From Candidatus Cloacimonadota bacterium (GTDB taxonomy: Bacteria; Cloacimonadota; Cloacimonadia; Cloacimonadales; PWNZ01), in contig PWOA01000074.1 in the NCBI GenBank assembly GCA_003564155.1, forward strand, positions 1 to 45,622: a DNA stretch of 45,622 bases, given 5' to 3'. The notes under the pieces were generated by a model. It was not told the DNA's origin, did not search any database, and saw only the letters and a list, made by a program, of their open reading frames with translations. The translations under genes and the position numbers were made by a program. Positions 4,735 to 34,183 of the stretch are shown piece by piece. Position 1 is the stretch's first letter; the number at the start of each line of letters is the position of its first letter.

Positions 4735-7700
4735 ATGGAATTTAAGAAAGTATTAGTAATCATGGCAATGATAACACTTTTTGTGGTTAGTTATGCAAAT
4801 TCACCAGTTGTGTGGGAACAAGATGGTATAGGCATCCGACAAGGTACCAATATTGAATGGTCAAGAGCTGCAGCTCCCATAGGTGAAGATAAGGTTATAT
4901 TCGTCTGGTCGGATACCAGAATTAGTGAAAGAGATCTGTGGGCACAGGCAATTGACAAAAATGGTGTCGTATGGACCAATAATGAATTTGCATCTGTACG
5001 TATAGATGATAAAACCGATAGGCAAGAGGATCCTGTTGTCATAGGAACAAGTGATGGCAATGCAATAATTGCTTGGATTGATTTTCACTGGCAGATTGAA
5101 GGTGCCGAGGAAGGAAGTGTGATGGCACAGAAAATATCTTCAGACGGGAATTTAATGTGGGAGAAAAGCGTACCGGTATGTATGACAAACCATCAGATAT
5201 CTTTGAACATTGTTCCTAACAATGATGGAGGTGCAATAATAATCTGGCACGATATGAGGGAAGGTAGTGGTATAGATATTTACGGTATGCATCTGAATGC
5301 AGATGGTGAACCATATTCCGAAGAATGGACAAAAGACGGTCTTCCTTTAGCATCAGGACGAGGCGCACAGCATTACCATACTTTATGGGAAGATGGACAT
5401 AATGGTGCTATTTTAGCACATGTAAACGAAGTTTCTAATGTTCAAGATCTTCATGTGAAAAGAATATCGCCAGAAGGTAAATTTTTATGGGAAAGAGAGT
5501 TAGCCGCTGATGAGAACATAGACTATGCAAATGCAAGAGTTCAACCATTTGGTGATGATACCTTTGGTTTTGCTTATACAGATACTAGAGATGGCTTTTA
5601 CAAGATATATGTACAGATAATTGACATGGATGGGAAAGATGTATGGAAAGAACCTGTACCGGTAGATAAAGAATCACACGGTTTGGGCTACGATCAGAAG
5701 AATCCCAGGGTTGTTGGAGCTACCGATAGCACTTTTGTTGTAGTCTGGGAAGACTATAGAGCACGAATTACTGAAGGTGGAGAAAATATTTCGGACATTT
5801 ATGTACAAGCTTTTGACACAGAGGGTAACCATTTATGGGGAGATAGAGGTCTTGCTTTAGTCAATAATGAATATGATCAATTAAATCCTCGCATGGAATC
5901 AAATGGCAAAGGTGGCGTTTTAGTCGTCTGGGATGATGCTCGAGAAGGTGGTCATCCAAATGTTGATGTTTACATTCAGGAAGTGACCCAAGAAGGGATA
6001 ATCGTATTAGAAGAAAATGGCAGAGCAGTTGCTCAAATTCCAGGAGAAGCATTTGCGCCTTTAGCAAAATATAATGGCGGCAACTTATTTGTTTCTTGGG
6101 GCGATATGAGAAATGGGTCCATAGGCATTTATTGTCAAGCCTATGATGAAGAGGATAAACAAATTTTTCAGGACAATGGTTTAGAAGTATACTGGGGCTT
6201 GAGCGGTGATGCAATAGATCATAACACTGTCGTTAACGGAGACTATATTTATATAGTATGGCAAGATACAAGATATGCCCACTTTGGATCACAGATAAAA
6301 GTGCAAAAAGTTGACAAAGAAGGTAATATTTTATTTGACACAAACGGCATTTCTCTAACTAATCATAGTGGAGCGCATCAAACAATGGGCAGAAATCAAA
6401 GCTCTATAAGTGCTGTCTCTCATCATCAAGGTGGTATAGCAGTAACGTGGCGTGAGTTAAGAGGCGAAAATGAATTAGTTTATACACAGGCTATAGGTCC
6501 CGAAGGCGAAATGTTATGGGATAATGATGGTAAAGGTCTCGGATTAAGAGTTACGACCGGTGATTTCGATTATTCTCAAGATAATCCTACCATTTCCCGT
6601 CGAGGAAATAGTTATATTATAGCTTGGGACCAAACAGACCCTGGTGATGATTTTAGTTATGCCAGAGATATATTTGCTCAGAAAATTGAGAACGGAGAAA
6701 GAAAATGGGGTGAAGAAGGGATTGAAATTGCATGGCAGCAAGATGAATTCATTCGCGATCATTATATTGCAGATGTTATCGGAGGAGAATATTTTGTATG
6801 GCGTCATTATGGTATATCCGGTAGTGCAGATGCCATAATCTATGCAAAACGAATTGATGAAAATGGCCAACCAGTCGGCGGTTGGGGTGATTACGGAATC
6901 ATAGTATGTGATTATCCTGGCTATATACAAGCTGGAATAACCTCTTTAATGACAGATGATGGTTTGACAATTTTCTGGCGAGATGAGCGTTCCAGAGAAG
7001 GCATTCCGCATGATGCGAGTATTTATGGCCAGCTATTTAATGAAGAAGGTGAAAATCAATGGCAAGATAATGGTTTAGCAATAGCTGACTACAGTAATGA
7101 TCAAGTAATGATAAACGCCCAACATGACGACGGATATGTATATTTAGGATGGCGTGATGCCCGAATTGATCCAGGAGCTCAAGATGTTTCATTTCAAAAA
7201 ATAGATCTAGAAGGTAACCCCCAATGGGGAAAACCTTCACCATTTGCTATTAAATCGCATACTGAACATGATTATCCAACTTTAGCAAAAGTCGGTGATG
7301 GTGTATTAGTTGCTTGGGAAAATAATTACGGAGAACTAGGTTCTAACTTACATATGCAAATTGCTTGGGAACAGTCCGGATATAAATACTGGAAAGAAGA
7401 AGGTGAAATATTGTGTGCTGCAAGTAAAAGACAAACGAGACCTAAAGCTATCCCATTTGATGATCAGCATGCTTTTATTGTCTGGGCTGATGGACGCTCC
7501 AGCGGTAAAGAAGAAATAGTTGGTATTTATTCTCAATTAGTCAACATGTATATTGATGTCAATATCGAGGATACCACGTTAGAACCTTCTAATAAAGCAG
7601 TATTACATGCCAACTACCCTAACCCATTCAACCCTGAAACAAAAATCAGTTTTTCTTTGCCACATAACGAGTCGGTTAATCTTAATATATATAATACTAA

Positions 7701-7872
7701 AGGACAATTGGTAAAAACAGTAATTGATAATGAATATCTTGAAACCGGAAATCATAGCATTATCTGGAAAGGTATTAATGACCAAGGCAAAACTGTAGGC
7801 AGCGGTGTTTACTTTTATAAGCTGGAAAGTGAAAACACAAGTCAGACTAAAAAGATGCTGCTGTTGAAATAA
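4735..7872 (+). CDS. Secreted propeller-like repeat protein with C-terminal sorting domain
   Basis: The signal peptide (about 1-22, ending SYA) is followed by some sixteen repeats of 50-65 residues. Each runs roughly 'vVvWxDxR...iyxQxidxxGxxxWxxxGxxl', as in VIFVWSDTR, FVVVWEDYR, VLVVWDDAR, IYIVWQDTR and AFIVWADGR. Such W-D-R repeats suggest beta-propeller blades; sixteen would make one or two propellers. The last ~85 residues are a FlgD-like/type IX-style sorting domain: ANYPNPFNPET, then IYNTKGQLVKTV, then GSGVYFYKL, ending in KKMLLLK. The protein is therefore expected at the cell surface or outside. No catalytic motif is visible, so adhesion or substrate binding is only a guess. GGAGGA lies 6 bases before the ATG. 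It begins a run of three sorting-domain genes. Confidence 0.85.
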   Translation: MEFKKVLVIMAMITLFVVSYANSPVVWEQDGIGIRQGTNIEWSRAAAPIGEDKVIFVWSDTRISERDLWAQAIDKNGVVWTNNEFASVRIDDKTDRQEDPVVIGTSDGNAIIAWIDFHWQIEGAEEGSVMAQKISSDGNLMWEKSVPVCMTNHQISLNIVPNNDGGAIIIWHDMREGSGIDIYGMHLNADGEPYSEEWTKDGLPLASGRGAQHYHTLWEDGHNGAILAHVNEVSNVQDLHVKRISPEGKFLWERELAADENIDYANARVQPFGDDTFGFAYTDTRDGFYKIYVQIIDMDGKDVWKEPVPVDKESHGLGYDQKNPRVVGATDSTFVVVWEDYRARITEGGENISDIYVQAFDTEGNHLWGDRGLALVNNEYDQLNPRMESNGKGGVLVVWDDAREGGHPNVDVYIQEVTQEGIIVLEENGRAVAQIPGEAFAPLAKYNGGNLFVSWGDMRNGSIGIYCQAYDEEDKQIFQDNGLEVYWGLSGDAIDHNTVVNGDYIYIVWQDTRYAHFGSQIKVQKVDKEGNILFDTNGISLTNHSGAHQTMGRNQSSISAVSHHQGGIAVTWRELRGENELVYTQAIGPEGEMLWDNDGKGLGLRVTTGDFDYSQDNPTISRRGNSYIIAWDQTDPGDDFSYARDIFAQKIENGERKWGEEGIEIAWQQDEFIRDHYIADVIGGEYFVWRHYGISGSADAIIYAKRIDENGQPVGGWGDYGIIVCDYPGYIQAGITSLMTDDGLTIFWRDERSREGIPHDASIYGQLFNEEGENQWQDNGLAIADYSNDQVMINAQHDDGYVYLGWRDARIDPGAQDVSFQKIDLEGNPQWGKPSPFAIKSHTEHDYPTLAKVGDGVLVAWENNYGELGSNLHMQIAWEQSGYKYWKEEGEILCAASKRQTRPKAIPFDDQHAFIVWADGRSSGKEEIVGIYSQLVNMYIDVNIEDTTLEPSNKAVLHANYPNPFNPETKISFSLPHNESVNLNIYNTKGQLVKTVIDNEYLETGNHSIIWKGINDQGKTVGSGVYFYKLESENTSQTKKMLLLK

Positions 7873-7936: not shown

Positions 7937-7975
7937 CATTTATCAGCTATAGGTAAAAATTGAATTATAATTGAA

Positions 7976-7981
7976 AAGGAG
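7976..7981 (+). promoter_or_regulatory. Ribosome binding site that fixes the TTG start at 7989
   Basis: AAGGAG sits 7 bases before an in-frame TTG at 7989. An upstream in-frame TTG at 7971 would place this site inside the coding region and give an odd basic extension. The 7989 start leaves a clean signal peptide. Confidence 0.65.
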
Positions 7982-7988
7982 ATCTATT

Positions 7989-10352
7989 TTGATTAAAATA
8001 ATCATGATAATATCAATCATATCATCGATGGTGTTTCTTTCCGGAGAGGAAAGCGGTGTTGCAGATTTTTATTATACCAATGAAACAATGGTTGAACAAT
8101 TATTTAAATGGGAAAAAGAGAACCCCGATATTTTTGAAGTCAAACAAATCGGCTATTCTCAAGAGGATAGACTTCCGATTTATGCAGTCAAATTATCGAA
8201 TAATGTCAAGGTCAATGAAGATAAACCTGCAATCTTAATAGTTGGTAGTCTTCATGCGGAAGAGATAATCGGTACTGAAATAGTTATGCGACGTATTGAA
8301 AAACACTTGGCAGCACCTAATCATCCTAATACCAGACCATATCTAAACGAATTAGAATTATGGTTTATTCCAAATTTGAATCCGGAAGGATGGGAGGTTG
8401 TAACTGATGGTTTGGACGTATATTATAGAAAGAATAAAAGAGACAATACGGGTAGTGGAGAATTTGATTATATACCCGGAATGGGACATGACAAGGATGG
8501 GGTTGACTTAAATAGAAATTTCGACTTTAATTGGGTTCATGGAGATACTTTATTTGAGATTAGACCTGGAACTAATGAGCCCTATGACTATTATAGGGGC
8601 CCTTTTCCAATGTCCGAATCCGAAATTCTAGCATTACTGGCATTACTAGAAGAACAACATTTCGTATATTCTATTGTCTGGCATTCATCAAGATCGGGCA
8701 ACTTTTCTGAGAAAGTTTACCATTCTTTTAATCATGATGGCGTCTACAGATCCGTTGACTACGACTTAGCTCGATCTATTGGTAATAATTTTGCATCCAG
8801 AATCACTAAACTTGGAGATTCTTCAACTTATGAATCCTTAGATTCAGCCGGCAGAAACGGCTCTGCTCATGATTGGTTTTATAAGGAATATGGAACTATT
8901 CAACTTTTAGCGGAAACCGGTCCCCCCCGGAATATACAACCTGATGACTTTGATGTACTGATGGAAGTTGTAGAAGAGTGTTGGAAAGGAGAAGAATGGC
9001 TTTTTGATCGTGCGAGAAATGGTCATTTAGATAGAGCACCTATGCTCACCGGGCATGTTACCGATGCTGTTACGGGAGAACCCTTACAAGCAGAAGTAAT
9101 TGTTCATGAGAAACATGCCAATTACTTTACCCCTAGGCTTAGTGACGAGCTTTACGGGCGGTATTGGAGACCTTTACTAGCAGGCACATATACTGTTACC
9201 TTTCGTAAAGAAGGCTACGAAACAGTAACCTTAGAAAATGTCGTTGTAAATAATTCAAGCTGGTCAACCCGTAGTGTAAGTTTAGAGCCTTTAGCAAAAA
9301 CAGAGTTTTCGGGAACAGTGCTGTTAAACGACAATCCGGTAAATGCCGAAATAAGCATTCATAATTCTAAATGGGAACCGACTGCTATTTATACCGATAC
9401 GATTGAGGTTTTTAATGGATCATTCAGTTATAGTACTTGGGAAGGTTTAAAAGATATCGTAGTAATTGCTGAAGGAGCCTACCCCCACATCGAAACGATA
9501 AACCTTCAACCGGAGAATCATCAAGTTCAGATCATTCTTTCTGAAAAAGAAGTTATTTTTTCCGAGAATTGGGAGAACTCAACTGATCAATGGGTAGTTG
9601 ATGGACCTTGGGAAATTATTACCCCCCCCGATCGAAATGGTGAGAGAGTTATTATTGAAAGCTACGATTCCGCAAGGAATTTCTATGAACCTAATGCAGA
9701 TGTTAGTATAGTAACTACTCGTCCAATTGATTTGACAGATTATACTTCACCCGACCAAGAGATTCCCATGCTTTCTTTTTGGCAAAATCTTTATACAGTT
9801 TGGGATTTAGATTTCGTTTTTGTTGATGTTTCGACTGATCAAGAAGAATGGCATAATTTATATAATATGTCAGGACAATATGACTATTGGCATCCTGTTT
9901 ATATCTCCCTGGAATCTGTTATGGGTGAAAATGTCTATCTTAGATTTAGGCTTTTTGCCGACACACCAACCGGATCAACCAGACTAGTAGATCCAGGCTG
10001 GATGATCGACAATATTAAAGTCTTTTCAGGGTTAACCTCTTCAACAAATATCGAATTTGATATCATGGATAAAATACAGCCAGTAGTTACACTTAATCAG
10101 AATTATCCTAATCCGTTTAATCCGCAAACTACTATATCATTCTCTTTGTATAACAAAGATTTTCAAGATGCAAGTATTGCAATCTATAATATCAAGGGAG
10201 CATTAGTCGAGAATATTAAGCTTAATAATCATAATATTTCCAAAGGAAATGTTGTATGGAATGCTGAGAATAATTCATCCGGTGTTTATCTATACCAACT
10301 GATTTTAGACGGGAATATCTATCAAACAAGAAAATCTGTACTCATGAAATAG
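7989..10352 (+). CDS. Secreted M14 zinc carboxypeptidase with sorting domain
   Basis: It is a zinc metallocarboxypeptidase predicted to trim C-terminal residues from peptides outside the cell. From a TTG start with AAGGAG 7 bases upstream, a signal peptide (1 to about 18) leads into the M14 domain. Zinc ligands are H89 and E92 in SLHAEE, and H232 in VWHSS. The substrate-binding motif GVDLNRN is at 171-177 and the general base is E309 in LLAETG. A carboxypeptidase-regulatory-like beta domain follows (from VTDAVTGEPLQAEV). Then comes a jelly-roll-like region with a WMIDNI motif, and a final sorting domain with NQNYPNPFNPQT, GVYLYQL and KSVLMK. All catalytic residues are present. It shares architecture with the leftward gene at 31521-34043. 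Substrate specificity (A/B/E type) cannot be read. Confidence 0.93.
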   Translation: MIKIIMIISIISSMVFLSGEESGVADFYYTNETMVEQLFKWEKENPDIFEVKQIGYSQEDRLPIYAVKLSNNVKVNEDKPAILIVGSLHAEEIIGTEIVMRRIEKHLAAPNHPNTRPYLNELELWFIPNLNPEGWEVVTDGLDVYYRKNKRDNTGSGEFDYIPGMGHDKDGVDLNRNFDFNWVHGDTLFEIRPGTNEPYDYYRGPFPMSESEILALLALLEEQHFVYSIVWHSSRSGNFSEKVYHSFNHDGVYRSVDYDLARSIGNNFASRITKLGDSSTYESLDSAGRNGSAHDWFYKEYGTIQLLAETGPPRNIQPDDFDVLMEVVEECWKGEEWLFDRARNGHLDRAPMLTGHVTDAVTGEPLQAEVIVHEKHANYFTPRLSDELYGRYWRPLLAGTYTVTFRKEGYETVTLENVVVNNSSWSTRSVSLEPLAKTEFSGTVLLNDNPVNAEISIHNSKWEPTAIYTDTIEVFNGSFSYSTWEGLKDIVVIAEGAYPHIETINLQPENHQVQIILSEKEVIFSENWENSTDQWVVDGPWEIITPPDRNGERVIIESYDSARNFYEPNADVSIVTTRPIDLTDYTSPDQEIPMLSFWQNLYTVWDLDFVFVDVSTDQEEWHNLYNMSGQYDYWHPVYISLESVMGENVYLRFRLFADTPTGSTRLVDPGWMIDNIKVFSGLTSSTNIEFDIMDKIQPVVTLNQNYPNPFNPQTTISFSLYNKDFQDASIAIYNIKGALVENIKLNNHNISKGNVVWNAENNSSGVYLYQLILDGNIYQTRKSVLMK

Positions 10353-10476: not shown

Positions 10477-13400
10477 ATGAATAGATATATAGTTTTATTC
10501 TTAATGGTAATGATGATTTCGCTTTCCTTTGGCCTAAGCCAAGAGATCAGACAAGTCTCAGATAATACTGTGAATGTCAGAATAGACGCAGATTATCATT
10601 CCATTATATCTGCTCAAAGTAGTGACTGTCCTAACGAAAACGATCTTAGTGAAAATATTATTGTTAGAGATGGAACAGTGTCTCAAACAGTAGCTTTGTT
10701 AGCAGAAGAAATTGAGATAATAATAAATGAATTAGTTATCGGGATATACAATAAAGGAGGTGAACGAGTACAACAACAAACATTTAACTTACTATTAGAT
10801 ACAATGAATGACTTTGACAGAATATATCTTTCTAATAGTTTTGTCTTAAAGGATATGTATGGATTTAGTATCAATGCAGATTTGATTAAGGAAGATGGCG
10901 ATTATCACAGCTTGATAGAAACCGTTGATTATGATATCGTCGGTCATGGTCATCGATCAGCTCCTGAATCTATTTCCGATTCTTTTTTAGCCTCTTACAA
11001 AACATTAGCGGATAATTTTCGTAGCTCATATTTTATCAACCTTCCTTTTAAGCAGCCTAAATTACTTATAATCAGCCACGAAGGGCTAACAAATGCTCTG
11101 AGTCCCTTTATCCAGTGGAAGCAGGAGAAAGGTTTCGAAGTTACTGTTATCAATAAACAAGATATAGCAGATAATCCATCTAGTAGCCAAATCAGGGGAG
11201 CAATTCGCACCTATTATAACGACACAGACAATAAACCTGATTATCTACTTCTTTTAGGTAATGTTAGTGGTAACTATTCTTTACCTACTTTTTACTATTC
11301 TGACGGACAAGATAACCATGCTTCGGATTTGCCTTATACTGTTATAACCGGAAATGATTATTTCCCCAACATGCATGCCGGGAGAATTTCAATAGAATCA
11401 ACTTATGAGTTAGTGACAATCCTTAACAAAACAATTAATTATGAAAAAACACCATATATGACCGATACTGGTTGGATGGAAAGAGCCTTAATAGCGGCAG
11501 GTAACTATGCTACAACATTACCAATACCTATCACCCCTATCCTGACATCAAGATGGGTAGCTCAACTTTTTCATGAAGAAGGATATGATGATGTTATCGA
11601 GATATACTGGGAAGAAGGTGATGGTGGTTATGGAACTACTCAGATAGCAGATGCATTAAATAGAGGCGTGCAATTCGTCAATTACAGAGGTTGGGGTGAT
11701 GCCAATGGTTGGCACTTTCCTCGCTTCCACAGATCTCATTTAGGTCAGACAGATGGAGGTGCAATGTCTCCAATAGTAACTTCCTGGGTATGTAATACCG
11801 GAGACTTTGCAAATCAAGTTATTGATCCGAGCTTTGGAGAATATTGGGTCAAGATGGGAACACCAACATCTCCTAATGGTGCAGTAGCCTTTATCGGACC
11901 TTCCGATTTACACACAAGTACAGAGTTTAATAATGCCTTGTGTAGTGGTTTTCATTGGGGAGTTCAAAAGGAAGGAATAAGATCATTTGGAAGTGCTTCA
12001 TTGAGAAGCAAAATGGAAGTGTATAAAAACTACCCTCATAATCGTCGGCCTGGTGATTTTGTTGATCATTATTTCCATGTCTATAATATCCTTTCGGATC
12101 CTTCATTAAAAATGTGGGTGCTAATTCCTGACGAGATGAATATAAATATTCCCGACCAAATTTCAAGTGCTGCTTCTCATATAGAGTTTGATACCCCCGG
12201 ATTGGAAGGAGGTTATGTTACTCTAACCAGAGATAACGAAATTTATGATACTTATCGAATAGATGGTGATTATGTCTTTATTCCTTTGGACGGAGAAGAC
12301 AGTGAAGATATTTTCATAACTGTCTCGTGTGAAAACTACCTACCGGTTCAAAAGACTATTGAAGTAATTCCCGAAACAGGAATTGCAATGGATAGTTATA
12401 ATTTCGGTAATAACGACCTGCATCCTGGTGATGAGATTACACTCAACGTAACTTTTAAAAATTATAGTAATTCGGATATCAGTAATGTATCTGTTGAACT
12501 GTCAAGCCCCACAGAAGAATATGTTACTATCGTCGATGGATATGACGAACTAGATACTATCGCAGCTAATGATACAGCAGAAGGCAACTTTGTTTTCATT
12601 ATTTGTTCCGATTGCCCGAGAAATGAACCGATCCAATTGAGCTTAGCAATATCACCAACAGATAACCATGCAAAAATACAAACTATACTTGGTGGTCTTC
12701 TTTTTATTATAGACGATTATGAAGTCGAATCTGCCAATGAAATTCTTGATCCGGGAGAAACTGCCAATATCCAGGTCAATCTGACCAACCATGGTGAATT
12801 TGATGCAGCCAATCTCAAAGCTTATATAATATCCGGCTCAAATGCAGTAGAAGTTCAAGAAGAACCAGTCAATTTTGGTCATGTGCCTGTAGGCGGTTCA
12901 GCAAATGCCTCGTTCAGTGCAACTGCTTCAGCAGACGCATATACGGGTAGACAGGTTTATTTCCAGCTTGACTTTGTTGACGAAGATGGTTTAGTTACTA
13001 CAAGTTATTTTAATATAACAATCGGCGAGGTATCTAATACCGACCCGACTGGACCATGTCGATATGGCTATTATGCTTATGACAGTTTTGATGTTGATTA
13101 TGAGCATGCTCCAACCTATGAATGGATCAACATAGATCCCGAAAAGGGTGGACCGGGAGAAGATATGTGGCTTCATGATGACGGAACGGAAACATTTGAT
13201 CTTCCTTTCATATTCCAATATTATGGTGAGGATTATGATGAAATTTCAATTTGTTCAAATGGATGGGTGAGTTTAATTCCAACTTGGATGATAAACTTCC
13301 GTAACTGGTCTATTCCTTCTCCAATAAGTCCAAGAGGTATTATTGCACCTTTCTGGGATGATTTAAAAGGTAAACCGGACGTTGGAGATTCACTAAGAGT

Positions 13401-14031
13401 TGCCTGGTACCATGATGAAGTAAGTAATCGTTTCATCGTTACTTGGCTTGATGCTTACAACTGGGCTAATATTCACCCAACAGGACTTGAAAAAATGCAA
13501 CTGATCTTGGAGCCTCGTGAAGATAATGACGGTGATATCATATTTCAGTACCATACTGTATGGAATCAAAATCAAAACAGAAACTATAGTACCACAGGCA
13601 TCCAAAGTCCCTGCAATACAACCGGAATCGAGTATGCTTTCTTTAATAATTATCCTCGATCAGCTACACCAATTCAAGAAGGCCTTGCTATCAGATTTAC
13701 CACCGACCCACCAGACCATTATACTTCAGTTACGGATGTTATAAAACCATCCTTCGCGATTGATCTGAAACAGAATTACCCTAACCCATTCAACCCTGAT
13801 ACAGTTATCGAGTTTAGCTTATCAGAACCTACCTTAACAACTTTAGAAATCTATAACGTTAAAGGACAAAAGGTAAGAACACTGCTAAATAAAGAGTTGG
13901 TGTCAGGACGTCATCAGATTACTTGGGATGGTAAGGATCAGTACAATACTGAAGTTGGATCAGGCATATACTTATACAAATTAATTACACCTTCTCACAT
14001 AGAAACAAAACGGATGGTTTTAATTAAATAA
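10477..14031 (+). CDS. Gingipain-like C25 family secreted protein with sorting domain
   Basis: The signal peptide (1 to about 22) precedes a prodomain-like region and a C25 caspase-like fold (about 190-600). In it, YLLLLGNVSG, AGRISIES and FVNYRGWGDANGWH lead to VCNTGDF with the presumed nucleophile C439. In gingipain RgpB the catalytic His sits in a GHG motif 33 residues before the Cys. Here the residue 33 before C439 is W406 (GWG), so the usual His appears replaced. H413 lies close by. Immunoglobulin-like domains follow, including two CARDB-like modules (EVESANEILDPGET). Then comes an exported adhesive-type domain (DEISICSNGWVSL) and a sorting domain (QNYPNPFNPDT, GSGIYLYKL, KRMVLIK). GGAGG precedes the ATG, and a strong terminator follows at 14053. 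Confidence 0.88.
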   Translation: MNRYIVLFLMVMMISLSFGLSQEIRQVSDNTVNVRIDADYHSIISAQSSDCPNENDLSENIIVRDGTVSQTVALLAEEIEIIINELVIGIYNKGGERVQQQTFNLLLDTMNDFDRIYLSNSFVLKDMYGFSINADLIKEDGDYHSLIETVDYDIVGHGHRSAPESISDSFLASYKTLADNFRSSYFINLPFKQPKLLIISHEGLTNALSPFIQWKQEKGFEVTVINKQDIADNPSSSQIRGAIRTYYNDTDNKPDYLLLLGNVSGNYSLPTFYYSDGQDNHASDLPYTVITGNDYFPNMHAGRISIESTYELVTILNKTINYEKTPYMTDTGWMERALIAAGNYATTLPIPITPILTSRWVAQLFHEEGYDDVIEIYWEEGDGGYGTTQIADALNRGVQFVNYRGWGDANGWHFPRFHRSHLGQTDGGAMSPIVTSWVCNTGDFANQVIDPSFGEYWVKMGTPTSPNGAVAFIGPSDLHTSTEFNNALCSGFHWGVQKEGIRSFGSASLRSKMEVYKNYPHNRRPGDFVDHYFHVYNILSDPSLKMWVLIPDEMNINIPDQISSAASHIEFDTPGLEGGYVTLTRDNEIYDTYRIDGDYVFIPLDGEDSEDIFITVSCENYLPVQKTIEVIPETGIAMDSYNFGNNDLHPGDEITLNVTFKNYSNSDISNVSVELSSPTEEYVTIVDGYDELDTIAANDTAEGNFVFIICSDCPRNEPIQLSLAISPTDNHAKIQTILGGLLFIIDDYEVESANEILDPGETANIQVNLTNHGEFDAANLKAYIISGSNAVEVQEEPVNFGHVPVGGSANASFSATASADAYTGRQVYFQLDFVDEDGLVTTSYFNITIGEVSNTDPTGPCRYGYYAYDSFDVDYEHAPTYEWINIDPEKGGPGEDMWLHDDGTETFDLPFIFQYYGEDYDEISICSNGWVSLIPTWMINFRNWSIPSPISPRGIIAPFWDDLKGKPDVGDSLRVAWYHDEVSNRFIVTWLDAYNWANIHPTGLEKMQLILEPREDNDGDIIFQYHTVWNQNQNRNYSTTGIQSPCNTTGIEYAFFNNYPRSATPIQEGLAIRFTTDPPDHYTSVTDVIKPSFAIDLKQNYPNPFNPDTVIEFSLSEPTLTTLEIYNVKGQKVRTLLNKELVSGRHQITWDGKDQYNTEVGSGIYLYKLITPSHIETKRMVLIK

Positions 14032-14336: not shown

Positions 14337-15617
14337 ATGGATGTCATTAATGATAATATGGTAAAATATCTTAATTGTTTGTCGCTAATATTTTTAATTA
14401 TTGTTACTGCTTGTAAACAACCGGAAACAGTTGAAATACAGGAAGTAGATCCCTTTGATTACATAGGCGGAGTACTAGAATATGGAGAGACGTTGAATCA
14501 AGCTCTGCAAGCTAAAGGCATTGGGATGACTGCTCTGAATCCAGTTCTCAACGAGTTAACGAGTATTTATAACCTTAGAAGATCAATGCCCGAAGATAGT
14601 TTTCTCGTTAAAATAGATTCCTTAGACGTAATTCATGAACTAAAGTATTTTCCCATTAGAGATAAGATAAGAATTTTTTGCATACAAAGAGACACTTTAG
14701 GTGGATATTTTCCTAAAATAGACACACTTCAAGTCGAAAAAGTATTACGAAAAACCGAAGGAACTATATCCGGCTCCTTATACGCGTCATTAAGAGACTT
14801 TGGAGAAGGACCTTATTTAATTGGCAAATATACTGAAATATTTCAATGGGATATTGACTTTCTGATAGATCCTCGAGATGGTGATCGATTTAGTTTGGTT
14901 TATGAACAATATATGTTAGGCGACACTTTTGTTAAATACGGTGATATATTAGTTGCCGAATATGAGAGCAGAAACTACAATAAACGTGCTTATAGATTTG
15001 AAGTTAGTAAAGAAGGATATGCTAAATATTTTGATAATCAAGGAGGCTCTTTTCAAAAGGCATTTCTTAGATCTCCTTTGAACTATACTCGTATTACTTC
15101 ATATTTCTCCAAAGGTCGTTATCATCCCATCTTAAAAATTGTACGCCCTCATAATGGTGTCGATTATGCAGCTCCCACAGGGACACCTGTCGTTGCAGCA
15201 TCAGATGGAATAGTATCACATGTCGGCTGGAAAGGAGGACATCCAACCGTAAATGGCAGAAGTGGCGGATATGGTAAAACTGTCATGATTAGACATCCAA
15301 ATAATTATCAAACATTATATGGCCATTTAAGTCGTTACGCCTCCGGGATAAAAACCGGTCAAAGAGTTTCTCAGAATCAAGTCATAGGTTACGTTGGACA
15401 AACGGGTTTAGCAACAGGACCTCATCTTCATTACACTGTCTATTATCACGGAACAGCAATTGATCCATTACAAATGAAGAATGTTGCAGGACCTCCTGTT
15501 CCCGCATCAATGATGAAACATTTTGAAGAAGTAGTCACTAATTTTGATTATTTTATGGATGTCCCTAATGTAGAAGTGAAGATATCTTTACCTCTGGTAG
15601 CAAGGTATGAGCAATAA
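14337..15617 (+). CDS. M23 family peptidoglycan endopeptidase, lipoprotein
   Basis: It is a zinc endopeptidase expected to cut peptide crosslinks in peptidoglycan from the outer-membrane or periplasmic side. The N-terminus carries a lipoprotein signal (SLIFLIIVTAC, lipid Cys 26). ATG codons at 14337 and 14358 are both possible; the second gives the more usual signal length, and neither has a strong ribosome site. An OapA/LysM-like linker region (about 40-245) includes EYGETLNQALQAKGI. The M23 domain (about 250-390) has all the zinc and catalytic residues: H272 and D276 in HNGVDYAAP, H330 in LYGHLS, and H363/H365 in GPHLHY. Overall it resembles ShyA/MepM-type enzymes. It is transcribed ahead of the membrane cluster but separated from it by 141 bases. 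Confidence 0.93.
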   Translation: MDVINDNMVKYLNCLSLIFLIIVTACKQPETVEIQEVDPFDYIGGVLEYGETLNQALQAKGIGMTALNPVLNELTSIYNLRRSMPEDSFLVKIDSLDVIHELKYFPIRDKIRIFCIQRDTLGGYFPKIDTLQVEKVLRKTEGTISGSLYASLRDFGEGPYLIGKYTEIFQWDIDFLIDPRDGDRFSLVYEQYMLGDTFVKYGDILVAEYESRNYNKRAYRFEVSKEGYAKYFDNQGGSFQKAFLRSPLNYTRITSYFSKGRYHPILKIVRPHNGVDYAAPTGTPVVAASDGIVSHVGWKGGHPTVNGRSGGYGKTVMIRHPNNYQTLYGHLSRYASGIKTGQRVSQNQVIGYVGQTGLATGPHLHYTVYYHGTAIDPLQMKNVAGPPVPASMMKHFEEVVTNFDYFMDVPNVEVKISLPLVARYEQ

Positions 15618-15758: not shown

Positions 15759-16361
15759 ATGATTAATATTAGTGAAAGAAAGTGGTTTAGGTTTTTTGCT
15801 CCACTTTTCTTGGTAATAATGTTTGCTTCATCGCAACTGTTTTCATTTGCGACTGCACATATACCGGAAGACGAGGTATTGGAATATATAGTTGAGGATT
15901 TGTCAGTTGAAGATGTTCCTGATGATAATGGTACCGGTTTAGTTGTAAGTTGGAAACCGATAGGGGTTGAAGCAAGGATTATTGAATATCGGATTTATCG
16001 AGGTAGTACTCAAGATCAACTTTTTCTTATCGGAACTATCCCTGTAAATCCAGAAACCGGTTTTACCGGTGAAAAAGTTTTTTACCATGACAGTGGTTAC
16101 AATCTGCTGACAAATATCAATCGTCCCCGTGGCTTAAGGCAAGAAGATCAACAACCTGTAGACAGCCCAATTTACCAGTATGTACCCCGAGATTTGACGT
16201 TAACTGAACATAAGTTTGAAAACTACTCTACTTTAGCGGTTATCCCCAAAAAACAATTCTACTATAAAGCAGAAAAAATTGAGCTCTTTGAAGATGACGA
16301 AGGAGAAGATAGTAGTTTTTATGCCGGTTTTAAAGATCGTCAATTTCGGCAAGTACTCTAA
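15759..16361 (+). CDS. FN3 / DUF6754-like membrane protein, N-terminal part before an in-frame TAA
   Basis: From an ATG with a good AAGGAG 8 bases upstream, this part encodes a signal peptide or anchor (about 10-30) and the first half of a fibronectin type III-like domain. Examples are GLVVSWKP and IEYRIYRGSTQDQLFLIGTI. It ends at a TAA at 16359-16361, but the same frame continues open for 110 codons up to the ATG of the next piece and then for 673 more. The sequence right after the stop (QLRPNKEYFYTVIAVDQ) is the expected 'L.PN.eYfYtViAvD' strand of an FN3 domain. The two parts therefore plainly belong to one 984-codon gene. As written, the product would stop mid-domain. It is the first gene of a four-gene membrane cluster. 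Confidence 0.8.
   Translation: MINISERKWFRFFAPLFLVIMFASSQLFSFATAHIPEDEVLEYIVEDLSVEDVPDDNGTGLVVSWKPIGVEARIIEYRIYRGSTQDQLFLIGTIPVNPETGFTGEKVFYHDSGYNLLTNINRPRGLRQEDQQPVDSPIYQYVPRDLTLTEHKFENYSTLAVIPKKQFYYKAEKIELFEDDEGEDSSFYAGFKDRQFRQVL
16359..16361 (+). other. Single in-frame ochre stop splitting one long gene
   Basis: The TAA follows CTC and is followed by CAA TTA. The 330 bases from 16362 to 16691 are fully open in the same frame and encode FN3-type sequence. No frameshift or second stop occurs in the 784 codons after it. One substitution (for example CAA or AAA to TAA) explains it. Sequence error, recent nonsense mutation and read-through all remain possible. Confidence 0.85.
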
Positions 16362-16691
16362 CAATTAAGACCGAATAAAGAGTATTTTTATACAGTTATT
16401 GCAGTTGATCAAAGAAGAAGACTTTTCCCTCATGCACCTATAGTTTCAGGTATTCCCAGAGTCAATAGCCCTGAAAAACCTCGAAGAATAAGCCCTGTAT
16501 ATTTAGAGGATCTTCAAAAACTTCAATTTGAATGGTTACTACCCTTTATAACCAGCGGTATAGCTCAATCTAACCTTTATCTTCTTTCCAATGATGATGT
16601 TAACACCTTTAATCACTATATTGAGCAACTCGAGTTATTTGAAAATAATAGACTATTACAATTAGAAGATCCGGCAATAGAACCTTTTGAA

Positions 16692-18713
16692 ATGACCATA
16701 TCAAATCCCGCATCGTTGGTATACTCAAGAGGATATAATAACAGAAATTATGACTATATATACTTAGAAGATCATAAACTAATCGACTCTCTAGGTGAAG
16801 TCATATTTGATGCAAGATCCGATAATATAACTGATTTTCGAGTTGTCCATTCCTATACAAATTTTTGGGGTTTGGAAAGTTTTGGACAACCTACAGAATT
16901 CAGAACCGTTAATCAAACTGATTTACCTCCCAAACCTCAATTTACTGTAAAAGATAACCCAAACTCAGAAGGAGATAACAACCTAATCTTCTGGGATAAG
17001 CCCACAGTTAACTTGATGGATACATCTTTTTTGAATCGTGAGAGAACTCGTTTGTTGATTAATTACGAGTATCAAACAAATGATGATTATAAAATCGATA
17101 ATATATTTTTTGACGTATATGATGATGAAGGGAATCACATAACTCATATTAACGAATTCTATCAAAACCTATTTTTCCGGGTAACTTTACCGGAAAAATA
17201 TAACATTAATTCACCTGAATATGACGAAAATCGTTTTATTAAATTTCATATAACATTTAGCGTCAGCGGTGACGAACTACCAGAAGATTATATATTTGAA
17301 CAGCAATTAGCTTTCGATGAAAATTATATGTCTTATAGACCGCAAACACTTTACTTAAGAGGTGATCCAATTGAAAATTTTAGTTACAGTGTTTATAAGA
17401 AGCCTTATGCTGGCGAAACCTTTTCTTTAAGCTCGAGAGTTTCCGGTATTATTCGAGAAACAGAAGATACGATTAATTATATTAACGATATCTTCCGACC
17501 AATCCAAAGGGTTATTCCTGAACAACAATTATATCTTATCGATACTTCTATAGATGCTTTTTATGATAAAGAAAACCGTAGACCCGTCACAACTCATATT
17601 TTCTATTCTTTAGTAGAAAGAAAAATGTCATATTATCAGCAGGAAGTAGAAAATTTGAAGATGGAACTTGATAAAGTTGATTCAGAAGAAGAAAAAGCAC
17701 ATCTTCAAAATCAAATAGATCAATATCAACTCCAACTTGCCATGAATGAATATGAATTTATGCAAGAAGCTAATCAACAACCTTCTGATCGAGCCAGGAT
17801 GAGAATGATAGTTCGTAGAAGAGAAAGGGAATTGAGAACTTTCCAGTACAAGATGGTTAACTCTAATGGAAGAGGGCTTTTTGTTGAAACAGATGTCTAC
17901 GAGGACAATTTAGGTAACAAATATTTCTTCCCTGTACCAAATTGGTTTGATACTGAAAGAACTACTACTTTGATAGCCACTTTAATCTTTGGTTTTTTAG
18001 TTTATATTATGGTAAAAAGAGCTAAACAAGGCAAAGATATGTATATCAGACCTATTGCAGGAATAGAAGAAATTGATAATGCTATCGGTAGAGCTACCGA
18101 AATGGGTCGACCAATATTGTTTAATCCAGGTTTAGATGGTATTAGCGTTGTTTCGACTTTAGCCGGATTGGCAATTTTAGGTAGAGTTGCTAAAAAAGCT
18201 GCAGAATATGACACCAAATTAATCGTTCCTTGTCGTGACTTTATTGTAACTCCAATTGCCCAAGAAATCGTCAAAGAAGCTCATTATGAAGCCGGTAGAC
18301 CTGACACCTTTGATAAAAACAGCGTATTCTTTTTAGCTAGTCAGCAGTTTGCCTTTGTTGCAGGTGTAAGTGGAATCATGATAAGAGAAAAATGTGCTAC
18401 AAATTTCTATATGGGAGCATATTATGCTGAAGCACTTATTATGACAGAAGTCGGGAATACAGTGGGAGCTATCCAGATAGCCGGTACTGACGCAATTACT
18501 CAGGTACCTTTCTTTATTACGACTTGTGACTATACCCTTATAGGTGAAGAATTATACGGTGCTGCAGCATATTTAGGACGAGAGCCGATGATGATGGCAA
18601 CCTTGAAAGCAACAGATGCCATGAAGATTCTCATACTCACATCAATAATAATAGGATCAATACTATCAACAGCTCAGCTTACATTCTTCATTGACTTGTT
18701 CCCCGGAGAATAG
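16692..18713 (+). CDS. DUF6754-like membrane protein, C-terminal part
   Basis: This is the downstream part of the gene interrupted at 16359; the true frame runs back through 16362. The ATG at 16692 has no ribosome site, so independent initiation here is doubtful. The order is: extracytoplasmic beta-rich region, about 1-310; coiled coil rich in Glu/Gln/Lys, about 315-385; membrane helix TLIATLIFGFLVYIMVKRAK, about 430-450; then a conserved domain. That domain includes RPIAGIEEIDNAIGRATEMG, PILFNPGLDGIS, LIVPCRDFIVTPIAQEIVKE, FYMGAYYAEALI and GAIQIAGTDAITQVPFFITT. A final membrane helix (ILILTSIIIGSIL) ends the protein. I recall this conserved part as the DUF6754 domain, of unknown function. 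The next gene starts 14 bases later, so they are surely cotranscribed. Confidence 0.8.
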   Translation: MTISNPASLVYSRGYNNRNYDYIYLEDHKLIDSLGEVIFDARSDNITDFRVVHSYTNFWGLESFGQPTEFRTVNQTDLPPKPQFTVKDNPNSEGDNNLIFWDKPTVNLMDTSFLNRERTRLLINYEYQTNDDYKIDNIFFDVYDDEGNHITHINEFYQNLFFRVTLPEKYNINSPEYDENRFIKFHITFSVSGDELPEDYIFEQQLAFDENYMSYRPQTLYLRGDPIENFSYSVYKKPYAGETFSLSSRVSGIIRETEDTINYINDIFRPIQRVIPEQQLYLIDTSIDAFYDKENRRPVTTHIFYSLVERKMSYYQQEVENLKMELDKVDSEEEKAHLQNQIDQYQLQLAMNEYEFMQEANQQPSDRARMRMIVRRRERELRTFQYKMVNSNGRGLFVETDVYEDNLGNKYFFPVPNWFDTERTTTLIATLIFGFLVYIMVKRAKQGKDMYIRPIAGIEEIDNAIGRATEMGRPILFNPGLDGISVVSTLAGLAILGRVAKKAAEYDTKLIVPCRDFIVTPIAQEIVKEAHYEAGRPDTFDKNSVFFLASQQFAFVAGVSGIMIREKCATNFYMGAYYAEALIMTEVGNTVGAIQIAGTDAITQVPFFITTCDYTLIGEELYGAAAYLGREPMMMATLKATDAMKILILTSIIIGSILSTAQLTFFIDLFPGE

Positions 18714-18727
18714 AAAGGAGATAAATT

Positions 18728-19357
18728 ATGAAAACAATAAAAAATCGAATACCTTTAGCGATGGTAATGACACTCGGATTCCTTTTTGTTGGATATGTAT
18801 TTATTCCACATAGAATTGCCAAAGATTACTTTGATTGGTTTTTATCTTGGACTAGAGCTATGTCACCTTTCGCAGTTGTTTTAGGTGTAATGAGTTTGAC
18901 TAGAACTCATTGGACTAAAATTAAACGTAAAGCACCTAAATGGCAATACAGCATCATAACCTTAGCGTCTTTAGTTTTTACTACCTTTTCCGCCTTCTAT
19001 TGGGGTAGAGAGCCAGGTACTCCATACATGTGGCTATTCGAAAACGTACAAATGCCACTTTCATCAACGATATTTTCGTTATTAGCATTCTATATTGCCT
19101 CCGCTTCATACAAAGCATTCAGGGCACGTTCTCCGGAAGCAACAGTATTGCTATTAGCCGCAATTATCGTCATGATTGCGCAGGTCCCGATCGGAATGGC
19201 TATAAGCAAATGGATTCCAGATATATCACATTGGATACTCAGCGTACCTAACATGGCCGCAACCAGAGCTATTATGATTGGTGTAGGTCTTGGTGGTATG
19301 TCGGTATCTGTTAGGATTTTGTTAGGAATCGAAAGGACTTACTTAGGGTCCGATTAA
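18728..19357 (+). CDS. Polytopic membrane protein of the DUF6754-type cluster (1)
   Basis: The product has 209 residues with about six hydrophobic segments: near 10-28, 42-60, 72-93, 108-128, 135-156 and 175-200. Small basic loops between them (RTHWTKIKRKAPKW, YKAFRARSPE) point to the cytoplasm. I recognise no transporter, enzyme or secretion motif. It starts 14 bases after the DUF6754-like gene with an AAAGGAG site, and is followed after 49 bases by a second polytopic gene, so it is probably a subunit of one membrane complex. Gly-rich helix ends such as GVGLGGMSVSVRIL suggest tight helix packing. Function unknown. Confidence 0.88.
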   Translation: MKTIKNRIPLAMVMTLGFLFVGYVFIPHRIAKDYFDWFLSWTRAMSPFAVVLGVMSLTRTHWTKIKRKAPKWQYSIITLASLVFTTFSAFYWGREPGTPYMWLFENVQMPLSSTIFSLLAFYIASASYKAFRARSPEATVLLLAAIIVMIAQVPIGMAISKWIPDISHWILSVPNMAATRAIMIGVGLGGMSVSVRILLGIERTYLGSD

Positions 19358-19406
19358 TACATTAAGATATATTTGATATTAATTAATAAAAAAACAAGGA
19401 GTTAAA

Positions 19407-20006
19407 ATGTTTGAGACAATAAGCACTTGGGTCGCAGCTTTACTTACCCTTTTCGTCTTCTCCTTCCTATATAAGGAAAACCCATTATACCGATTTGCCG
19501 AGCATCTATTAGTTGGCGTTTCGGTCGGATATGGACTACCTTTAGTATATTACAATGTCTTTATCCCATATGTATATACTCCAATATTTCTTAGGCATGA
19601 GTTTATATTCATTATACCAGCATCACTTGGAATCCTATTTCTTTTCAGGTTTCATAGTAAACTATCCTGGTTGTCTCGCTACCCAATAGCTTTTAGTATG
19701 GGTACCGTAGGTATGGGCGTACCACTGGCACTTCATGCAAATACACTAGTTCAATTAAGATCTTCAATTCTTCCGTTGACTAATATAAACTTAGTGATAA
19801 TTTTTGTAGGTACAGTAACGATTCTGTTTTATTTCTTTTTTTCCAAGGCTCATGAAGGGGTTTATAAAAACTTTACCCGTATAGGTGTCTGGTATATGAT
19901 GATAGGTTTCGGAGCTTCCTTCGGATATACGGTTATGGCAAGATTATCTCTTCTAATTGGCAGAATCCAATTTCTTGTCGGTGATTGGCTAAGATTAATT
20001 CAATAA
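19407..20006 (+). CDS. Polytopic membrane protein of the DUF6754-type cluster (2)
   Basis: The product has 199 residues and about six hydrophobic segments. Conserved-looking polar spots lie within or next to the helices: FAEHLLVGVSVGYGLPL, GMGVPLALHA, SKAHEGVYKNFTRIG and GFGASFGYTVMARLSLLIG. The embedded His and Glu (AEH, KAHEG) are the kind of residues found in proton- or metal-coupled channels, but this is inference. A clear AAGGAG site sits 6 bases before the ATG. It lies between the first polytopic protein and the anchored soluble-domain protein of the same cluster. I do not recognise the family. Confidence 0.88.
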   Translation: MFETISTWVAALLTLFVFSFLYKENPLYRFAEHLLVGVSVGYGLPLVYYNVFIPYVYTPIFLRHEFIFIIPASLGILFLFRFHSKLSWLSRYPIAFSMGTVGMGVPLALHANTLVQLRSSILPLTNINLVIIFVGTVTILFYFFFSKAHEGVYKNFTRIGVWYMMIGFGASFGYTVMARLSLLIGRIQFLVGDWLRLIQ

Positions 20007-20056
20007 TATAATTTTATAACCGTAGCGAATATTTTGAACTATAAAGGAGATTTATC

Positions 20057-21019
20057 GTGAACTTTTTTCAAAGATTACAAGCATTAGACAGACGTTGGGT
20101 ATATCTGCTCGTAGCTATTACAGTGACTGTACCACTTGTATTTGTATATGATTCACCAACATATACGACAGAACCAACTGAGAATATTTATCAAATGATA
20201 GATAGATTTGCAGAGATAAATGAACGAGGCGAACAACGCAGAGCAATATTTTTGAATTTTCATCATGATGCTGCTACAATGCCGGAGTTATTTCCTCAAG
20301 AAACAGCTATTTTAAGACATGCTTTTCTCAGGGGAGTTCCTGTCTTTACTTTTACTATTCTTACCACTGCTGCACCATTAATTGATTTCGCCATTGATAC
20401 TGTCAAAAGAGAGATTCAAGCTACAAATCCTGAAAAGGATATTGTTTCAGGTGTTCATTATATTAACATCGGATTTAAACCACCCGCGCTATATTTACCG
20501 ATTATTTTAGGTATGGGTGATGATATTGCTGAAGCTCTTGAGACAGATGCAGAAGGTAGAAATATCGCCGATTTACCTATGATGGAAGGAATAAGGAATT
20601 ATGAACAGATGAATTTAGTCGTCCAATTTTCTGGATCTTCTTTTGGTCAAGAATGGTTTATCTATGCTCGTCCTCAATTTGGTGTTAATGTAGCAGCCGG
20701 TATAACTGCTGTTATAGCACCTGATACTTATCCTTTCCAACAAACAGGACAGTTAATTGGAATACTTGGTGGTTTGAAAGGTGCAGCTGAGTATGAAAAA
20801 ATGGTAGATCTTTTTGCAAACAGAGGAAGACCGTTTAGTAGAGATATTGCTCGATCGCAACATGTTTCTATAGTAGATGATGAAGTACCTTATCAATTTA
20901 GAGTTGCTCGTATTGGAATGAATGCACAAAATGCTGCTCATATCATGATGATTATATTCATTATTATAGGAAATATCGGTTATTTTCTGCAGAGAAGAAA
21001 AGAAAAGGTTTTAGAGTAG
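20057..21019 (+). CDS. Anchored soluble-domain protein of the DUF6754-type cluster
   Basis: The gene starts at GTG (20057) with AAAGGAG 7 bases upstream. A single N-terminal membrane helix (about 15-32) and a C-terminal helix (about 292-310, IMMIIFIIIGNIGYFL) flank a soluble domain of about 260 residues. The domain alternates beta strands and helices: AIFLNFHHDAATMPEL, AFLRGVPVFTFTILTT, VHYINIGFKPPALYLP, FGVNVAAGITAVIAPDTYPF and GQLIGILGGLKGAAEYEKMV. The order of these blocks, especially the last (IG-LxGxxGAAxY), loosely echoes the DUF6754-like domain encoded by the first gene, so the two may be paralogous partners. It is the last gene of the cluster and is followed by a large hairpin. Function unknown. 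Confidence 0.88.
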   Translation: MNFFQRLQALDRRWVYLLVAITVTVPLVFVYDSPTYTTEPTENIYQMIDRFAEINERGEQRRAIFLNFHHDAATMPELFPQETAILRHAFLRGVPVFTFTILTTAAPLIDFAIDTVKREIQATNPEKDIVSGVHYINIGFKPPALYLPIILGMGDDIAEALETDAEGRNIADLPMMEGIRNYEQMNLVVQFSGSSFGQEWFIYARPQFGVNVAAGITAVIAPDTYPFQQTGQLIGILGGLKGAAEYEKMVDLFANRGRPFSRDIARSQHVSIVDDEVPYQFRVARIGMNAQNAAHIMMIIFIIIGNIGYFLQRRKEKVLE

Positions 21020-21023
21020 TAAT

Positions 21024-21090
21024 ATTTTGACCGTTCATCTTATTAGCATCCCGGATATATCCGGACGAATATATGATGAGCGGTTAAAAT
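21024..21090 (+). terminator. Nested hairpin at the end of the membrane cluster
   Basis: An outer 16-bp stem pairs 21024-21039 with 21075-21090; two of its pairs are G-U wobbles. It encloses a perfect palindrome, CCGGATATATCCGG, at 21051-21064. It begins 4 bases past the stop at 21019. The outer arm starts with ATTTT and ends with AAAAT, so a T-run is present only in a weak form. Likely terminator or 3'-end stabiliser. Confidence 0.55.
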
Positions 21091-21205
21091 GCCATATTAT
21101 TTATCATTATTATCTAACACACAATTGAGTTAATTGTTTGCTTTTTGCAGAGCATATTGCCATCATAATTTTGTTGTGGTAATATTGTAGATTAGAATTT
21201 TGTTC

Positions 21206-28274: not shown

Positions 28275-30485
28275 CTAATTAAAAAACAACCATCTAATGC
28301 CGGCATTAATATGAATACCTGATCTGCTTGGATATCCAAAAAGTGTTTCTGTTTCCAAAATATTCATAATATCAGCCTGTATGTCAAATAAATTTGTTAT
28401 GCTGATCCTAGCAAAACTATCTAATATTGACGTTTTAGTTGAATATTGATGAATTGGTTTATACTCACTGAAATAATGATGAATGAATCCAATACTAATA
28501 ATATTATTATGACGGAGGTGATATTTACACTCTAAAACTGAACGGCTAAACAACCGAGGTAAAAATTGCATTTCATCATTATCAAAGTAAATTTTCCCAA
28601 ATCCATACAATTCCCAGCTTATATTACCCATATGTAAACTTATCGAATAATCGTTCTTCAAATAATACGTACCAACTTCACTAATTTCTGTAACAAATAT
28701 TTTTTCAGAATCTTGTTCTCTATCAATAGTTTCGAATGATGAAACATATGATTCAGATTCAACAAATTTCCTTTTCCCTGCTGTCAAACTCAATATTATT
28801 GATCGGAATAAACCCTGGTTCAATTCATTCAAAGTAATAGTTGAATATATATCACTTTCTATTATTTGATGTACAAATCGATTGTCTGTTGTAAACCAGC
28901 TTTCTTGAAAATTAATATTGTCGTTATCAATACTATGCAACTCACTTTCGATAGCTCCAACTCTCCAGTTCAATAAATTGTTGAATCTATACTCTAAATA
29001 TGAATCAGCCCGGTACTTGTACTCAAGGCCGGATAATATTTCTGCATTAAGGTATAGCAGATCCGTATCAAAAATATATGTTAATGTTTGGATATCATTA
29101 TCTTTATTTATAAGATTAGTTAGGATTTTGTCATCTTGATTCCAAGAAAGTAATCTTTCCCATTTCATGTTAAAAGAATGGTTACTAAGAAAAAAACTTC
29201 GATTTAAATTCATCTGAAGCAACTCTCTTTCTGATCTATCCAAATCATTCTTGTCTGCTTCAAGCTTATAAATAGATTTCTCATAACGCAACCCAATGTC
29301 AAGATAAGGGTTATTGAAGTAGAGCATATGTTCATTTAGCTTATTTTCGACTGGTTGAATATCAAAATGTTGATTATCGATATACCTGAGTTTTGTAGAA
29401 GGAATAGATTGGTCTATAGTCAACATATTCCAACGAAAAGAATAGTTACCAAAAGGATAAAAGAGATCCAACATAAAGTTGCTGTTTTTTTCATCGCTTC
29501 CCATCCAGTATCCATCATCCGTAAAATAACTTGAGATAAGTTGCAATCCTTCTATCGAGAATGTGTTGTTGTTTTTAAGCTTTATATGCGCATAGTCCAT
29601 ATTCATATAACCTAAGCCCATGTAAGACTCAACTAAAGTCACCGGAATATTATAGTCTTCAGTCCTAAATTCCCATTTGTGAGGGTAAGTTTTAAAATCA
29701 AAGAAAGGAAACAAGTTTTGCATAACATGAAATGCTTTTAGATGATCAGGAATTAGTGTGAATTTATTTCGTGTTATTAGCGGATAGGTGAGAGACGGTG
29801 AAAAAAGATGATAATTTTCATTATACGTTGAGTAAGGTAACCTTAATAATTCATGTTTTGACATTTCACGTTTAGCTTTAACATAGTCATCGATCATTTG
29901 ATGAAGATCATCCAACTCATTTTCATCAAATACATCTTCCTCATAGTCAGGGAGGATAGTTTCATCAGCTACAAACTCAACTGCTACATCAAGAAAACCA
30001 ACGACAGCTTCACCTTCTTTATAAGCCGGTATAAATTCCCATTCTCGGACTGTTTGTTTTGCTAAACTATCTAATACAGGAATTGACTCTTTAATTTCGA
30101 TATAACCTATGGTACTGTCGGGTAATACAGTAATCTCTAATAATACCGTTCCTTCGAAAACATGATATTCTAATGGATAGTAAGGCGGTGTTTCGCGAAT
30201 GATTTGAGGAGGAACAACATCTAATTCATTATGACGAATTCCTTCAGCTAATGAACACCTGGCGCAAGCTATCATTGGAGAATTGTCAACCACTTCTGCT
30301 CTTGATTGATATACTTCGTAATACTCGTTACTGTGTAAGGCAGTAAAAAAAAGAATTACCCCAGCAAAGAATAATAGGGTTATAGTCTTCGACAACATAT
30401 AAAAACAACTAAAAATATTTAGATAAAATAATTTCAATATCCCTAAATCCGAGTTATCGGCATACTTGTTACCATTTACAACCAC
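28275..30485 (-). CDS. Exported protein with TonB C-terminal domain fused to a beta-barrel-like region
   Basis: After a hydrophobic export signal (about 31-51) and a short CARCS-containing stretch comes a TonB C-terminal-type domain (about 92-173). Its PPYYP motif, then EGTVLLEITVLPDSTIGYIE, LAKQTVREWEFIPA and VEFV, match the TonB/TolA C fold. The remaining ~560 residues alternate short aromatic strands and turns and end in INAGIRWLFFN, as in outer-membrane beta-barrels. TonB-C domains normally end inner-membrane proteins, so this order is unusual. The GTG at 30485 has AAGGAG 5 bases upstream and overlaps the preceding gene by 10 bases. An ATG at 30398 would give a cleaner signal peptide but has no ribosome site. 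Function unknown. Confidence 0.8.
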   Translation of the reverse strand: MVVNGNKYADNSDLGILKLFYLNIFSCFYMLSKTITLLFFAGVILFFTALHSNEYYEVYQSRAEVVDNSPMIACARCSLAEGIRHNELDVVPPQIIRETPPYYPLEYHVFEGTVLLEITVLPDSTIGYIEIKESIPVLDSLAKQTVREWEFIPAYKEGEAVVGFLDVAVEFVADETILPDYEEDVFDENELDDLHQMIDDYVKAKREMSKHELLRLPYSTYNENYHLFSPSLTYPLITRNKFTLIPDHLKAFHVMQNLFPFFDFKTYPHKWEFRTEDYNIPVTLVESYMGLGYMNMDYAHIKLKNNNTFSIEGLQLISSYFTDDGYWMGSDEKNSNFMLDLFYPFGNYSFRWNMLTIDQSIPSTKLRYIDNQHFDIQPVENKLNEHMLYFNNPYLDIGLRYEKSIYKLEADKNDLDRSERELLQMNLNRSFFLSNHSFNMKWERLLSWNQDDKILTNLINKDNDIQTLTYIFDTDLLYLNAEILSGLEYKYRADSYLEYRFNNLLNWRVGAIESELHSIDNDNINFQESWFTTDNRFVHQIIESDIYSTITLNELNQGLFRSIILSLTAGKRKFVESESYVSSFETIDREQDSEKIFVTEISEVGTYYLKNDYSISLHMGNISWELYGFGKIYFDNDEMQFLPRLFSRSVLECKYHLRHNNIISIGFIHHYFSEYKPIHQYSTKTSILDSFARISITNLFDIQADIMNILETETLFGYPSRSGIHINAGIRWLFFN

Positions 30486-34043: not shown

Positions 34044-34183
34044 AACATCCTCCATAGTTTGCATTATATTAGTCGTACGATTACGCTTCTAATTAATAAT
34101 TGTTTGTACGTCAAAGTGCTTAATAACCAAACAATTCTAAATTAAACTAATATTCACTTAGAGAAATAACCGACAACTGGGGT

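Follow-up and report, generated by a model that had tools for sequence, protein, structure and literature searches.

A conserved four-gene membrane operon with a DUF6754 component and its ASKHA-family partner module in Cloacimonadota and other bacterial phyla

The subject of this work is a four-gene operon for membrane proteins A, B, C and D (the ABDC system), found in a 45,622-nucleotide stretch of DNA from a Candidatus Cloacimonadota bacterium. This stretch, the window, is an entire contig (C98; PWOA01000074.1) of a draft genome of 1.86 Mb in 109 contigs that is 83% complete. The four genes are contiguous and lie head to tail on the same strand (Table 1), separated by exactly 14, 49 and 50 bases; they have ribosome sites of the AAGGAG or AGGAG type, and they are followed by a strong hairpin (-31.9 kcal/mol, z = -6.1 against shuffled sequences). 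In these respects an earlier description, made by a model from the letters and open reading frames (the sequence-only reading), was accurate. The hairpin was rejected as a classical terminator, as it carries no T-run, and as a repeat element, as it occurs once in its own genome. Comparison with other genomes gives good support to the view that ABDC is a dedicated and conserved membrane unit, hitherto undescribed, that has its own specific ATPase partner. It is unlike any known kind of system, a judgement that rests on its absence from the literature and databases searched and not on comparison with a catalogue of unknown gene families.

Table 1. Features of the ABDC operon in the window
Feature	Position (strand)	Description
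Gene A	15759..18713 (+)	Signal peptide, FN3-like and long extracytoplasmic region, transmembrane helix, DUF6754 Rossmann-like domain, C-terminal transmembrane helix
In-frame TAA	16359..16361 (+)	Codon 201 of A
DUF6754 domain (PF20539) of A	17937..18698 (+)	Predicted cytoplasmic
Gene B	18728..19357 (+)	Six-helix membrane protein, predicted N-terminus inside, without known family
Gene C	19407..20006 (+)	Six- or seven-helix membrane protein, predicted N-terminus outside, without known family
Gene D	20057..21019 (+)	Transmembrane helix, extracytoplasmic Rossmann-like domain, transmembrane helix; without known family
Strong hairpin 3' of the operon	~21023..21091 (+)	Without T-run

The distribution of the system was surveyed in 125 Cloacimonadota genomes, 262 genomes from outside the phylum and 14 well-known control genomes. 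DUF6754, the conserved domain of A, was present in 122 of the 125 Cloacimonadota genomes (one to four copies per genome) and in 69 of the 262 others, while none of the 14 controls carried it. The sequence-only reading had proposed that its complex be checked by seeing whether the same four genes stay together elsewhere, and they do: the order A-B-D-C was found in 148 of 149 complete operons spanning many phyla, with loci in Zixibacteria, WOR-3/Stahlbacteria, Latescibacterota, Fermentibacteria/Aegiribacteria, Poribacteria, Coatesbacteria, Edwardsbacteria, Eisenbacteria and Gemmatimonadota. The distance matrices of A, B, C and D correlate with one another (r = 0.73-0.82, 152 operons), as would be expected of a jointly inherited unit, although such a correlation is no proof of physical contact. 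Two forms of A were distinguished, one of ~370-450 amino acids in most lineages and one of ~910-1150 amino acids mainly in Cloacimonadota, and many Cloacimonadota genomes carry both. Some genomes have two or three full, diverged copies of the operon consecutively (loci L094, L099, L119 and L190). The public label of one locus, Armatimonadetes (L157, JABMPU010000020.1), is probably mistaken: the short operon that it carries is Cloacimonadota-like.

As to the surroundings of the operon, GcvP, a TonB receptor, shikimate genes, enolase and PurQ were considered as conserved metabolic neighbours and rejected as lineage-specific. In the window, a gene for an M23 (ShyC/MepM-like) peptidase lies directly upstream of A (14337-15617), and a clustered homologue of it, assigned at the level of the cluster, precedes A in several Cloacimonadota loci.

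The sole exception to the A-B-D-C order is the window itself, where the order is A-B-C-D. The sequence-only reading took this layout at face value, the inversion of C and D relative to all other complete operons being invisible from one sequence. Both C and D of the window are nearest to the same relative as its A, which indicates that they have been moved and not replaced. The copy is irregular in a further respect. The sequence-only reading treated A as a single gene that reads through, without mention of an in-frame TAA that interrupts the frame after codon 200; beyond this codon the frame is open to the end of the gene. All five of the closest relatives have a lysine at this column. Recoding was rejected because TAA serves as the normal stop codon of the genes nearby, and the codon is either a nonsense mutation or an assembly error of the draft. 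Should the stop prove genuine, A would probably be broken, since the portion downstream of it has no signal peptide. A genome from the window's own family (G001), the only such relative sampled, has no match to DUF6754 or to D; this absence, together with the TAA and the exchange of C and D, hints that the system is decaying in the window's lineage. The window copy is best described as a slightly rearranged, possibly decaying and atypical member of the ABDC group.

Only the conserved domain of A belongs to a Pfam family, the other three proteins being without one. The C-terminal domain of A matches DUF6754 (PF20539) over its full length (E = 1.2e-112, 372 bits against a gathering cut-off of 27, profile positions 3-256 of 257). 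The name of that family carries no function, its scope does not extend to the ABDC context, the partners or the gene order, and no mention of DUF6754 or PF20539 was found in the literature searched. The assignment of A as an FN3/DUF6754 membrane protein in the sequence-only reading held firmly for DUF6754; FN3 was weak and below cut-off when the window protein was searched by itself (E = 0.0085) and became clear once its relatives were added to the profile (titin FN3, 7.6e-11). Two motifs of the DUF6754 domain, QIAGT and CDYTLIGEE, are strongly conserved, and a series of polar residues is invariant (E76, E186, E192, Q201, Q210, D219, T221, E225, E226, D248 and K251 in domain numbering). An AlphaFold model of the domain (predicted local distance difference test score, pLDDT, 86.8; predicted template modelling score, pTM, 0.79) alternates strands and helices between two membrane helices. 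A Foldseek comparison of this model with the PDB gave no match at E <= 0.001 (best 1.4e-3, query-normalised TM ~0.3), the nearest, weak folds being sugar-phosphate isomerase-like proteins and cofactor-binding Rossmannoids. Judged by positive-inside charges, the domain is most likely cytoplasmic. The large outer part of A is a lineage-specific extension that takes A well beyond the ~370-400 amino acids of its short relatives, and the earlier portrayal of A as a large extracytoplasmic subunit is too simple.

For B, C and D the topology was predicted from alignment-averaged hydropathy and positive-inside charges. Six membrane helices are predicted for B, with the N-terminus inside, and six or seven for C, with the N-terminus outside and a motif FGYTVMARxSLLIGR; the earlier statement that both are six-helix proteins without a family is thus right for B and for the absence of families, and leaves the helix number of C to be widened. 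The D protein is predicted to start inside and to consist of a transmembrane helix, a soluble domain on the outside and a second transmembrane helix with an RRKEK tail. Its AlphaFold model (pLDDT 90.8, pTM 0.87), in which strands and helices alternate between two membrane helices, agrees with the averaged hydropathy and with the arrangement first described, a soluble domain flanked by helices. A search of the PDB with this model by Foldseek gave nothing at E <= 0.001 (best 9.9e-3, TM ~0.3). No curated family in Pfam or NCBIfam covers B, C or D. The nearest approach was a weak likeness of B, over ~180 residues, to the signalling domain 7TMR-DISM_7TM (PF07695; E = 0.0011, 19.3 bits against a cut-off of 29), shared by 4 of 22 relatives; B differs from that family in falling below its cut-off, in having six helices and in lacking a signalling output domain.

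The system has partners that the sequence-only reading, confined to four genes, missed. Outside Cloacimonadota, two genes, M and S, often adjoin ABDC, whether upstream, downstream or divergently, and a small gene X (~115-150 amino acids) precedes M in 14 loci; an X homologue also precedes M in the four Cloacimonadota loci checked. The M protein (~600-640 amino acids) is a MutL/GlmL-like member of the ASKHA ATPases (PF13941, ~1e-128) that keeps the ASKHA phosphate motifs. It differs from GlmL in its length (GlmL has ~450 amino acids), in scoring far below the GlmL cut-offs, in being paired with S and in occurring without glutamate mutase. The S protein (~375 amino acids) shows a weak, local likeness to the barrel-sandwich domain RnfC_N (PF13375; E = 0.0014, 19.1 bits), which at a cut-off of 25.6 bits does not place it in an Rnf/Nqr complex; it has no significant full-length RnfC match, and profiles of S, B, C and D compared with PDB sequences returned nothing significant. 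The literature searched gave no hit for PF13941 and nothing useful on the M family.

The coupling of ABDC to this module is tight. Of the 262 genomes from outside the phylum, 65 carried both DUF6754 and S, 4 carried DUF6754 alone, 1 carried S alone and 192 carried neither (Fisher p = 1.8e-55, a value that overstates independence, the genomes being related, in a sample that covers very many families). Of the 69 genomes outside Cloacimonadota that carry DUF6754, 64 also have M. The window's own genome carries M and S as a fused protein of 974-978 amino acids, encoded on another contig (C89; L202:5021-7945), in which the ASKHA phosphate motifs DIGSTTT and DIGGATTD are intact. The fused gene stands beside genes for alanyl-tRNA synthetase and a heptosyltransferase-like protein.

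What ABDC does is a question on which the anatomy permits more than one answer. Our preferred reading is that A, B, D and C would be subunits of one obligate inner-membrane complex, in which B and C may form a membrane core of twelve or thirteen helices. The Rossmann-like DUF6754 domain of A would face the cytoplasm, with the FN3-like domains outside, and the Rossmann-like domain of D, in which strands and helices follow one another as they do in A, would lie on the outer side. A cytosolic module of M (the GlmL-related ASKHA ATPase), S (RnfC_N-like) and X would work with this complex, and in an ATP-dependent transport cycle ligand pockets inside (A) and outside (D) would act through the B/C core. 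An ATP-dependent, pseudo-symmetric inner-membrane transporter served by M and S fits best because Rossmann-like domains on opposite faces of the membrane are combined with an ASKHA ATPase; as a claim it is tentative, and we would put its chances below even. The same caution applies to the broader formulation, that ABDC with M, S and X is possibly an undescribed class of membrane machine in which A and B are opposed in topology to D and C, and which is driven or assembled by an ASKHA-family ATPase. The analysis shows the gene set, its fixed order, the phylogenetic coupling, the predicted topology and folds and the conserved polar residues; that the proteins assemble physically and in this orientation, that M hydrolyses ATP and that the complex transports we infer, and confidence in the mechanism is low to moderate.

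Several results weigh against a transporter of this design. No subunit from A to D matches by sequence a transporter or a secretion family in Pfam, NCBIfam or the PDB, which bears out the remark in the sequence-only reading that none of the parts resembles a transport or secretion system that can be named. Neither of the two findings that this reading had named as refuting it, scattered homologues and a confident transporter match, was thus made. In profile comparisons by hhalign (~150-190 sequences) neither the pair A and D nor the pair B and C gave a significant result, and although the rotation test on A and D returned 30.3, compared with 24.6 +/- 2.0, a reversed control scored equally high, so that relatedness of the A domain and D is not proven by sequence comparison. 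In the models of D and of the A domain, helices and strands alternate in the same order between two membrane helices and the conserved residues come after strands; the proposed pseudo-symmetry would rest on this topology and secondary-structure order. Finally, three Cloacimonadota genomes (G001, G011 and G101) have M and S but no DUF6754, and M/S may for this reason have a role without ABDC.

Two other roles fit the anatomy of ABDC nearly as well as transport. A trans-envelope sensor or regulator, in which D, together with the FN3 region of A, responds to the state of the envelope or to a ligand outside, B and C relay the signal to the cytoplasmic domain of A, and M and S read it out, would suit two soluble domains on opposite faces, the highly variable outer region of A (total length ~370 to 1150 amino acids) and the faint resemblance of B to a signalling domain. 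However, no conserved neighbour of the operon encodes a kinase, cyclase, response regulator or DNA-binding protein, and conservation is highest in the domains and membrane helices and not in an output domain, which leaves this role rather unlikely. We regard as similarly doubtful a membrane enzyme with a catalytic DUF6754 domain, in which the complex would modify a lipid, a carrier or a cofactor at the membrane. The many invariant polar residues of the domain and the nature of its nearest, weak folds are what an enzyme might show, but those folds stand beyond the E <= 0.001 limit of the Foldseek comparison, and no metabolic neighbour is conserved across phyla.

Two further explanations would attach the genes to known pathways. 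The strong PF13941 match of M would recommend GlmL of the coenzyme-B12 glutamate mutase pathway, yet M reached 207-230 bits against the NCBIfam cut-offs of 475 and 600 for GlmL and the ornithine pathway, and the glutamate mutase subunit PF06368 was above cut-off in none of 123 Cloacimonadota genomes. With no mutase subunit above cut-off, and two M proteins of other genomes at 222-230 bits where GlmL requires 475, membership of that pathway is largely refuted and must be called highly improbable. A part in a type IX-like secretion route is brought to mind by three Por_Secre_tail proteins encoded just upstream of the operon in the window, and the tail family was found in 44 of 69 ABDC genomes compared with 57 of 193 others. 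But the tail is absent from 25 of the 69 genomes outside the phylum that carry ABDC, an association far looser than that with S, and adjacency is uninformative in a genome with many tails; a type IX role is accordingly improbable.

Returning to ABDC as a membrane unit with an ATPase partner, its fixed order across phyla, its near-universal presence in Cloacimonadota and its occasional triplication in tandem indicate that it is probably important to these bacteria. It looks like widespread bacterial biology, found outside Cloacimonadota too and there mostly in uncultured phyla, and its tight link to M and S offers a specific point at which the system can be tested. Were M to energise ABDC, the system would be an ASKHA-driven membrane machine unlike ABC, secretion or rotary systems; if ABDC proves to be a sensor or an enzyme, it would still belong to the core of the envelope in lineages that are largely uncultured.

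Among the remaining genes of interest in the window, those at 4735-7872, 7971-10352, 10477-14031 and 31521-34064 encode proteins whose sorting tails (Por_Secre_tail, FlgD_ig) are type IX-like; one of the set is a C25 peptidase and two are M14 carboxypeptidases. The window's own genome has at least 14 sorting-tail matches. A protein of 247 amino acids encoded at 34184-34927 has no Pfam match, and one of 736 amino acids, encoded at 28275-30485, has as its sole Pfam match a TonB C-terminal domain, which lies near its N-terminal part.

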